Source of the DNA: Chitinophagales bacterium
Lineage (GTDB): Bacteria > Bacteroidota > Bacteroidia > Chitinophagales > Saprospiraceae
Direction: 5' to 3'
Length of the DNA stretch: 64,000 bases
NCBI GenBank assembly: GCA_013298845.1
Contig: JAAFJN010000005.1
Span: forward strand, 84,908 to 148,907
Within the stretch, counting starts at the first letter, position 1; each line of letters begins with the position of its first letter. This document shows, piece by piece, positions 21,095-22,465 of this stretch. Position numbers and translations under genes: made by a program. Below the pieces are notes generated by a model, which did no database searches, was not told where the DNA came from, and saw only the letters and a program-made list of their open reading frames with translations.

Positions 21095-21316
21095 GTACGC
21101 TGATGACAAATATTATTTCAAAATCAAAAAATAGAGCTGTTGAATTCCAATGTTGTTTTTGACCAAAGCGGCCAAAACAGGGCAAATATACTGCACAAGG
21201 GCAATAGACAGTAAGGATTTTAAAATAAAAAACTTGTCAAAATTTTGTCTGCGGAGGGGTGGTGGTGGGGTGGGAACTTACAGCGCACGTCGCGCCTCCC
21301 CACTTAAAGGGGGACA

Positions 21317-21504
21317 GGAGGTGTGCGTGCGGAGGGTTGTCATCCCCCTAACCCCCTTCAAAGGGGGAATGGATTCATGGAAATTTGGCATTTTCGGCTT
21401 TTTGATGCTTTTTTCTCATGTTTTCCCCTTCAAATCAATAGCATTTTCGGTCTAATTTACGGTGTACGCTACGCCTCCCCCTTTGAAGGGGGTTGGGGGG
21501 ATGA
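21317..21504. mobile_element. Short inverted-repeat element (MITE-like), copy A
   Basis: About 165 bases bounded by inverted ends: left GTCATCCCCCTAACCCCC leading to TTCAAAGGGGGAAT (about 21339-21370) and right CCCCCTTTGAAGGGGG then TTGGGGGGATGA (21475-21504), which is the reverse complement of the left. The interior is AT-rich with TTTTCGGC and ATTTTCGGTCTAATTTACGG and carries no gene. A GGAGGTGTGCGTGCGGAG-type run precedes the left end in every copy. Confidence 0.7.
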
Positions 21505-21594
21505 ATGTGCGGGCGGAGCGTGGTCATCCCCCTAACTCCCTTCAAAGGGGGAATAGATTCGTAGAAATTTAGCATTTTCGGCTTTTCATGGCAC

Positions 21595-22005
21595 TTATTT
21601 CTCACCCTGTTTATTCGATTTTTCAAACGCTTCTATCCAAGCCATGAGTGCTTCGGCGACGTCCCAGCGACACTCAAGGACTTCCCAATCAGAAAAACGC
21701 AGGACGGTGAAGCCGACTTCTTCAAGGTCTTTTGTTTTTTGGGCATCTTTTCTGGCGACTTCTTCTATTTCGTGCGTAATACCATCTACTTCTATCACCA
21801 ACATTAATTCAAAGCACATAAAATCAGCAATGTATTTTAAAACAGGCCGCTGCCGATGAAATTGGTAGCCTTTCAAATAGCCTTTTTTCAGGACATCATT
21901 CCACAAATATATTTCGGCTTTAGTCGAATTTAACCGAAGGGTACGCGCATACTCTTTCAATGCTTTGTTGTAATGATGATTATTAGCGGGCGATGCTTTT
22001 TGCAT
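21595..22005 (-). CDS. DUF559 / Vsr-like endonuclease-fold protein
   Basis: 136 residues (MQKASPANNHHYNKALK). Motifs of the DUF559 restriction-nuclease-like fold: LRLNSTKAEIYLWNDVL, YQFHRQRPVLKYIADFMCF (with the catalytic Asp in IADF), LVIEVDGITHE (Glu/Asp pair) and the C-terminal GFTVLRFSDWEVLE. The family relates to very-short-patch-repair nucleases; it probably cuts or nicks DNA. The gene lies inside copies of an inverted-repeat element and its start codon is about 8 bases from a broken MoxR fragment. Residues for catalysis look intact, so it may be active. Confidence 0.85.
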   Translation of the reverse strand: MQKASPANNHHYNKALKEYARTLRLNSTKAEIYLWNDVLKKGYLKGYQFHRQRPVLKYIADFMCFELMLVIEVDGITHEIEEVARKDAQKTKDLEEVGFTVLRFSDWEVLECRWDVAEALMAWIEAFEKSNKQGEK

Positions 22006-22012
22006 AATTTTG

Positions 22013-22192
22013 ACGCGAGTTTAATGTAGTGGTTTGTGCATTAAATACCAAAGGCTCTCCAAGACTGAAACAATCGGCCACGTACCAAGCCAACTGGGTT
22101 TTGCCGGTCAACAGCAGGGGCTGTCCGAGCGCAATGGCCACGTTCACCGCATCTAACAGCGCGGGCGAAGATACATAGTTTACTATGTGCAC
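22013..22192 (-). pseudogene. Broken MoxR-type AAA ATPase fragment, P-loop deleted
   Basis: An open stretch of about 60 residues reads SPALLDAVNVAIALGQPLLL, then TGKTQLAWYVADCF and EPLVFNAQTTT. MoxR-like ATPases have TGEPGTGKTQLA at this place: the five residues EPGTG are missing in frame, removing the phosphate-binding loop. The rest of the protein is absent, replaced by the DUF559 gene. It is a remnant, not a functional ATPase. The frame continues past 22013 to a stop at 21983, overlapping the DUF559 start. Confidence 0.65.
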
Positions 22193-22220
22193 ACTATATC
22201 TCCCATTTGGAAGGAAAACA

Positions 22221-22405
22221 GGAGGTGTGCGGGCGGAGCGTAGTCATCCCCCTACTGCCTTCAAAGGGGGAATGGATTCGTAGGAATTTGGTACTTTCGG
22301 CTTTTTGATGCTTTTTTCTCATGTTTTCCCTTCAAATCAATAGCATTTTCGGTCTAATCTACGGTGTACGCTACGCCTCTGCCTTTGAAGGGGGTCGGGG
22401 GAGAT
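22221..22405. mobile_element. Short inverted-repeat element (MITE-like), copy C
   Basis: Same order as copy A with point changes: GGAGGTGTGCGGGCGGAG, left end GTCATCCCCCTACTGCC then TTCAAAGGGGGAAT, interior GGTACTTTCGGCTTTTTGAT, right end CCTTTGAAGGGGGTCGGGG then GAGATGAC. The two short copies are nearly the same length (about 165 bases between ends) and flank the DUF559-bearing copy in direct orientation. The remaining bases up to 22465 hold no gene. Confidence 0.7.
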
Positions 22406-22465
22406 GACCACGCTCAGCCCTCCGGCTGTTCACTTCGCGATCTACTCGTCAAAAGGAATTCTCCC

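Follow-up and report, generated by a model that had tools for sequence, protein, structure and literature searches.

A gene of the DUF559 family lies among inverted, repeated sequences in the window, that is, in the whole stretch of 64,000 nucleotides that was analysed. The locus raises the question of whether gene and repeats belong to a single mobile element, and of how such an element could spread. We consider it probable that the locus is one copy, accompanied by two gene-less derivatives and by remnants, of class-wide mobile elements with REP-like ends, which would be spread by nuclease-induced repair. The window copy is intergenic.

Layout of the locus and its nuclease

The following features were recognized.

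21275..21313, plus strand: degenerate end of a further unit, with the hairpin-like CCCCACTTAAAGGGGG at 21298-21313; aligns with 21454-21492
21329..21505, plus strand: gene-less unit A, consisting of an outward tail (TCATCCCCCTAAC), hairpin 21352-21367, interior, hairpin 21477-21492 and inverted tail (alignment, hairpin search, folding)
21511..21597, plus strand: end of gene-bearing unit B, with a tail, hairpin 21536-21551 and an interior that extends as far as the gene's stop codon (78% identity to the A region; outer inverted repeat with 22382-22420)
21595..22005, minus strand: DUF559 nuclease gene, 136 aa (PF04480, E 1.3e-28; conserved residues; fold matches)
22001..22216, minus strand: AAA-ATPase-like fragment, from the start of the DUF559 gene to unit C (our reading; without Pfam match)
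22200..22216, plus strand: weak candidate for the other, degenerate end of unit B (paired with 21296-21313 when A and C are aligned)
22225..22420, plus strand: gene-less unit C, with inverted tails and with hairpin-like sites at 22255-22270 and 22379-22394, both of which differ from the consensus at 2 positions (88.9% identity to A)

Units A and C, which the initial annotation had described as copies of about 165 bases with inverted ends, are indeed copies and are longer: 21299-21504 and 22202-22407 shared 88.9% identity over 208 columns with 4 gap openings, and each unit has two hairpins in inverted order. The ends of unit A are 29-nt inverted repeats, 97% complementary; its exact hairpin is found at 21352-21367 and 21477-21492, and folding of 21336-21508 on itself gave -81.7 kcal/mol with RNA parameters. 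Allowing at most two mismatches, CCCCCTTYRAAGGGGG matched six times in the window, always at the DUF559 locus, for a mean of 0.08 in 100 shuffles. The third left end, said to enter the DUF559 gene, was also confirmed. Segment 21454-21604 was 78% identical to 21275-21418 over 151 columns, and the likeness continued about 53 nt beyond the hairpin, reaching the final ten bases of the gene (stop codon 21595-21597). Outer inverted repeats were found at 21511-21548 and 22382-22420 (87%, 39 columns). As for the degenerate right end that had been placed near 22199-22216, it has a counterpart at 21296-21313 in the A/C alignment, and it is weak. Terminal inverted repeats, by which IS elements and MITEs are recognized, were thus present at the window locus, and they were present in relatives as well.

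Both A and C retain a stretch like the last bases of the DUF559 gene (ATGAGAAAAAAGCAT versus GGTGAGAAATAAGTGCCAT, gene strand), a sign that they may have arisen by deletion from a gene-bearing unit. The AAA-ATPase-like peptide of 22001-22216 (minus strand), in which the P-loop is apparently shortened, had no Pfam match at 1e-4. It is apparently a remnant of another gene, upstream of the DUF559 gene, and possibly the leftover of a gene formerly invaded by the element. No clean empty counterpart of the window site was found: in the nearest relative, G003, the sucA-aminotransferase stretch gave no blastn match to the element, had no hairpin by our measure and, in our reading, holds another open reading frame.

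The initial annotation had called the gene product a Vsr-like nuclease, and this reading was borne out. The protein matched PF04480 at E 1.3e-28, with 99.5 bits for a curated cut-off of 20.6. Residues E31, D61, E72, D74, H78 and D87 are all present; among 111 aligned DUF559 domains, the first four were invariant, and H78 and D87 were each found in 110 (the matching of these residues to the letters of the EDxHD motif is our own). In a profile search, the DUF559 structure 3hrl was retrieved at 1.2e-27, and 3r3p, labelled 'mobile intron protein', at 6.3e-6, whereas the single window sequence found 3hrl (8e-17) and did not find 3r3p at E 1. With an AlphaFold model of the protein (pLDDT 84), Foldseek gave 3hrl at 5e-7, the only match below 0.001, followed by 3r3p (homing endonuclease I-Bth0305I) at 4.8e-3 and, weakly, by Vsr (1vsr) at 0.13. 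A likeness to TnsA was not significant (Foldseek E 1.6). No Y1 family was among the Pfam matches of the protein at E 1. Judged by profile and predicted fold, the window nuclease is Vsr/EDxHD-like, a kin of the homing endonuclease I-Bth0305I and not an HUH transposase. It is likely a DNA-cutting enzyme; its cleavage of DNA and the movement of the element are inferred. The EDxHD family, and the co-conversion of flanks in homing, are described in PMC3943268, and a cyanobacterial genome paper assigned a DUF559 gene to EDxHD (PMC9403480).

In the window's own genome, DUF559 had no second match at E 0.001, and the exact hairpin had no further copy outside the DUF559 locus. Dispersed gene-less hairpins were found in the genomes of relatives and, by exact-match search, not in this one. 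Since the window's genome has no other exact hairpin copy, the case depends on relatives.

Hairpins and DUF559 across the class

One hundred DUF559 loci were assembled. Of these, 80 came from rows 1 to 83 of the class list, where three rows were skipped (a contig-edge locus and two close neighbours), and 20 were hand-picked from the 70 rows of a second list. These are mostly best-scoring matches, so that strong DUF559 matches are over-represented. Hairpins were defined as GC-rich, with a stem of at least 7 and a loop of at most 6. Within 300 nt of DUF559, they were found upstream at 66 loci, downstream at 73, on both sides at 57 and on either side at 82, leaving 18 loci hairpin-free. For 1152 pseudo-positions in the same loci, the proportions were 3.8% upstream, 3.5% downstream, 0.3% both and 6.9% either. 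At 0-50 nt downstream, hairpin density was 11 per kb; at 2-4 kb, it had dropped to 0.12 per kb. Hairpins on both sides were seen at 38 of 65 loci where DUF559 is in frame within another protein, and at 19 of the 35 others.

The two hairpins of a locus resemble each other. For the 57 loci with both, the left/right distance was 0.170 within a locus versus 0.332 between loci (0 of 5000 permutations), and the pair fitted better inverted in 36 cases versus 10, with 11 ties. Outward tails were richer in C than inward ones (mean 4.61 versus 2.66 of 8; 98 of 137 above, 35 below). A TCAYCC tag was found at 41 of 170 outer and 25 inner positions of DUF559 hairpins, versus 8 by shuffling; because this enrichment was modest, TCAYCC was discarded as a universal tag and the C-rich tail was measured instead. 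Hairpin distance tracked DUF559 distance, even across families (r 0.33, 0 of 2000 permutations, 90 loci).

Among close relatives of the window gene, nine named homologue loci were inspected, and eight had hairpins on both sides within 300 nt; L044 had none there. In a tree of 112 domains, the window grouped with L177/L039 (100/99), then with L040 (96/87). At locus L177, from the window's genus and apparently on the same contig as L039, a complete gene-less unit with inverted ends stands on either side of the gene (about 126 and 123 nt). In three Pontibacter loci, the window's hairpin flanks the gene, as CCCCCTTTGAAGGGGG on one side and as CCCCCTTCAAAGGGGG on the other, and CCCCCGCCAGCGGGGG was found on at least one side at L040, L041 and L042. 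Downstream of DUF559 at L179, hairpins CCCTCTCCATG(A/T)ATGGAGAGGG and GCTCCGCGCAGCGGAGC alternate, with a spacing of about 69 nt.

At the scale of genomes, counts were made on lists typed by hand from class-wide tables of DUF559 and of the hairpin pattern. The pattern CCCCTCTCC-N1-6-GGAGAGGGG occurred in 80 of 396 genomes of the class, and its reversed control was absent from all rows. DUF559 was present in 71 of the 80 pattern-bearing genomes versus 121 of 316 pattern-free ones (Fisher 4.6e-17), a tally that includes hairpins adjoining DUF559 itself. With at least three hairpins beyond four per DUF559, it was present in 20 of 22 genomes versus 172 of 374 (Fisher 2.2e-5); since the genomes are related, both p-values overstate the case. 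DUF559 was found in 37 of 38 genomes with at least five hairpin copies. Nine genomes had the pattern and no DUF559, including G395 with 7 copies, and 121 had DUF559 without the one pattern searched. The initial annotation would have given way had DUF559 genes lacked nearby ends and had the ends been distributed without any link to DUF559; the flanking on at least one side at 82 loci and the 71 of 80 versus 121 of 316 genomes point to a link.

Away from DUF559, we read 3 kb around each of 20 hairpin sites, the first places listed in five genomes, and found no DUF559 motif. By the pattern used, 17 were single hairpins and three had a second one nearby; the CCTCACCCC tail or its complement was near 18 of them. 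The layout of these 20 sites is that of REPs rather than of complete transposons.

Such a layout brings in the possibility that DUF559 is a passenger and that another enzyme, for example a Y1/HUH transposase, moves the hairpin-ended elements. A Y1 transposase (Y1_Tnp) was indeed present in 33 of the 38 hairpin-rich genomes, the tailed single hairpins resemble REPs, and G395 has hairpins and Y1 without DUF559. REPs are thought to be moved by TnpA-REP (PMC8266576, abstract text). In the five other hairpin-rich genomes, however, DUF559 was present and a Y1_Tnp match absent. C-type hairpins lay on both sides of 1 of 20 Y1 genes, hand-picked among strong matches in hairpin-rich genomes, versus 40 of 100 DUF559 genes (on either side, 4 of 20 versus 73 of 100). 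Moreover, hairpin type tracks the DUF559 lineage. The case for Y1 as shared mobilizer is weakened by these results, and we regard a passenger role of DUF559 as unlikely.

DUF559 domains inside host proteins

By motif reading, 65 of the 100 DUF559 domains share a stop-free frame with another protein. In our reading, host sequence flanks the domain on both sides in 59, a count from which the terminal or truncated cases L095, L103, L111, L113, L141 and L158 were excluded. In the second list, with 70 rows for 100 genomes, we counted 28 matches in a stop-to-stop frame of at least 300 aa. Family models were run on 20 in-frame proteins (18 plus L173 and L117; NCBIfam at 1e-10, Pfam at 1e-4). LeuRS, IleRS, MetH and RecG were recognized at two sites each, and acetate-CoA ligase, RecJ, IcmF, MutS, a RecB-like helicase, HsdR, a helicase-like protein, an Eco57I-type methylase and a SpoIIE sensor were also recognized. 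The remaining models recognized HisF and RluA, with DUF559 at the N-terminus, and PurQ/PurL, with DUF559 at the C-terminus. In most of the 20 proteins the family match was split into at least two stretches, which we read as a host interrupted at DUF559; for the helicase-like protein, the downstream part alone was recognized. The flanking hairpins translate to Pro/Gly-rich linkers, such as NPSPKERG and LPLGEDLGGA. Upstream of one MetH frame carrying an in-frame DUF559, a SAM riboswitch was detected (L084:1139-1276, RF00162, 74 bits).

A reading of these insertions as introns or inteins was rejected: no Rfam group I or II intron reached the gathering score at 17 loci, and no intein family was among the matches listed for the 20 host proteins (for L129, the best 25 of 86). 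Three features go beyond the initial annotation, namely the in-frame insertions in hosts, the kinship to a homing endonuclease and the mostly single hairpins elsewhere.

Occupied and empty alleles could be compared for two hosts. For IcmF, a host match at E 1e-60 was found in 19 of 26 genomes of the G302 genus, of which seven are gene-bearing, two gene-less (G511, G492) and ten empty at one site, in all 19 between RPxY and LPxGNNGLGL. On the host tree, which is weakly resolved, allele state required 4 changes, so that descent with loss is possible. Inserts were more diverged than hosts, for example with an identity of 0.66 versus 0.89 between G302 and G280.

For IleRS, genome G020, from the window's genus, carries DUF559 in its only close match, and no insert is present in its sister G038. 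Between the two, identity is 44% in the codons before the insert (20 of 45), versus 98.2% further upstream and 93.3% downstream. This replaced flank fits co-conversion during homing, and ordinary recombination could be an alternative. Compared with inserted alleles of other species, it was 54-69% identical; compared with alleles without DUF559 (G005, G013 and G019, the last with a gene-less insert at the DUF559 site), 46-58% over 45-48 sites. Because the latter score near the inserted ones, the source of the G020 flank is not settled. Elsewhere in the same G020 gene, a second, gene-less unit lies in frame and replaces about 14 nt of the G038 sequence. At this empty site, the one compared base by base, such a replacement was found instead of a target-site duplication.

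Strict homing, in which DUF559 would spread between alleles of the same site only and the hairpins would be inert linkers or remnants, could account for part of these data. It agrees with the kinship to a homing endonuclease, with the replaced flank in G020, and with the clustering of DUF559 by insertion site (32 changes on the tree versus 62.6 when shuffled; the tree of this short domain leaves 30 of 108 inner branches open). Against it, the host gene changes within supported DUF559 clades, for example one with RecJ, ACS, RluA and LeuRS, and closely related domains are also found in IleRS and RecG; such close kin in unrelated genes mean that jumps happen. The gene-less unit at a different place in G020 IleRS, and the maintenance of hairpins as matched inverted pairs, also speak against this reading, which we rate a little below the passenger role. 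Clustering by site together with switches of host gene points to persistence at a site with occasional jumping. Among plasmids, the matches amounted to 36 records, all below 60% identity; the ten genera named among the matches listed lie outside the window's phylum, a further six groups having no genus name there.

GC-rich hairpins at gene ends can act as terminators. That the hairpins are nothing but terminators or REPs near short genes, with DUF559 a Vsr-like repair or defence gene, is nevertheless highly improbable, because they lie on both sides of the gene and inside open frames, as matched inverted pairs with outward tails, and are rare at control positions and at Y1 genes. A DUF559 protein of Caulobacter, VsrA, has been proposed to act in Vsr-type mismatch repair (PMC12907096), and hence not every DUF559 need be selfish.

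Proposed mechanism and known systems

Copying driven by the nuclease, with hairpins as ends, is in our view the best-supported explanation for the comparisons above. In each element, a Vsr/EDxHD-like DUF559 gene would be enclosed by a pair of inverted ends, and each end would combine a GC-rich hairpin with an outward tail rich in C, a layout that is shown statistically. Unoccupied DNA would be cut by the nuclease, for which the hairpin ends may serve as guides, and the element would be copied in during repair, through homologous recombination where the sites are allelic (homing) and at times at other places. Gene-less units would be derivatives retaining the ends, the direction of change being presumed from the alignment. 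Within genes, the copies that persist would be those whose hairpins and nuclease are open in the host frame, forming an added domain with Pro/Gly-rich links; here we infer selection. More tentatively, the elements may form an undescribed, splice-free selfish class, in which an EDxHD/Vsr nuclease with REP-like ends transposes and homes in frame into essential bacterial genes, is tolerated there as a domain and breeds gene-less repeats; REP-like systems would then have arisen at least twice, with unrelated enzymes.

The initial annotation had likened the gene-bearing element and its short derivatives to RAYT genes among REP sequences. The parallel holds for the anatomy, and the enzyme is of another family. 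As with RAYT (TnpA-REP) and REP/REPIN, a small enzyme gene lies between inverted hairpin-plus-tail ends, gene-less hairpins occur elsewhere in many genomes of relatives and hairpin type tracks the enzyme lineage. In contrast, no HUH/Y1 domain was found in the Vsr/EDxHD-like DUF559 enzyme, and many DUF559 copies lie in frame inside proteins. The DUF559 element is not a RAYT/REP member, because its enzyme comes from another family.

With EDxHD homing endonucleases of the I-Bth0305I type, the element shares profile and fold kinship, conserved E, D, H and D residues, a co-conversion-like replaced flank (one case) and conserved genes as insertion targets. It differs in that neither a group I intron nor an intein was detected with it, in its hairpin ends and gene-less derivatives, and in its 136-aa protein, which has no long DNA-binding region. 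Among the literature matches listed, the nearest described case is the ShiLan insertion in phage methylases, where a homing endonuclease has likewise entered a host gene and no splicing element is detectable; that enzyme is of the HNH type and out of the host frame, and hairpin ends are unmentioned in the abstract (PMC11855218).

Among the open-access titles and abstract openings listed, we found no description of DUF559 with hairpin ends or of in-frame DUF559 insertions, which is weak evidence given that preprints and most subscription papers fall outside this scope. The package of enzyme and hairpins appears to be selfish DNA of a type that has drawn little attention. If so, DUF559, a 'domain of unknown function' that is common among these genomes, would mark a mobile element, and annotated IleRS, LeuRS, MutS and MetH could carry parasitic nuclease domains. 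Essential genes would be occupied by a homing nuclease without splicing, and the element would be an independent counterpart of RAYT/REP.

In Rickettsia, palindromic elements are found in frame within protein genes; no nuclease gene is known to be associated with them. The DUF559 elements are similar in placing palindromes in frame in protein genes and different in having gene-bearing and gene-less forms at one site. If the proposed reading is true, the origin of in-frame palindromic repeats becomes testable.

Additional in-frame repeats were observed in two host proteins. Besides DUF559, the HsdR frame of G090 (L036:1-3309, also L172) contains several short in-frame hairpin repeats (translated, FPSSGGVAESRGG and SPPLEGWLKAGVV). 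In G236, a LeuRS (L149) has, beside DUF559, a long Pro/Ser-rich insert with repeats of LPSPRGEGSGER, as if hairpin-coded linkers had grown in tandem.
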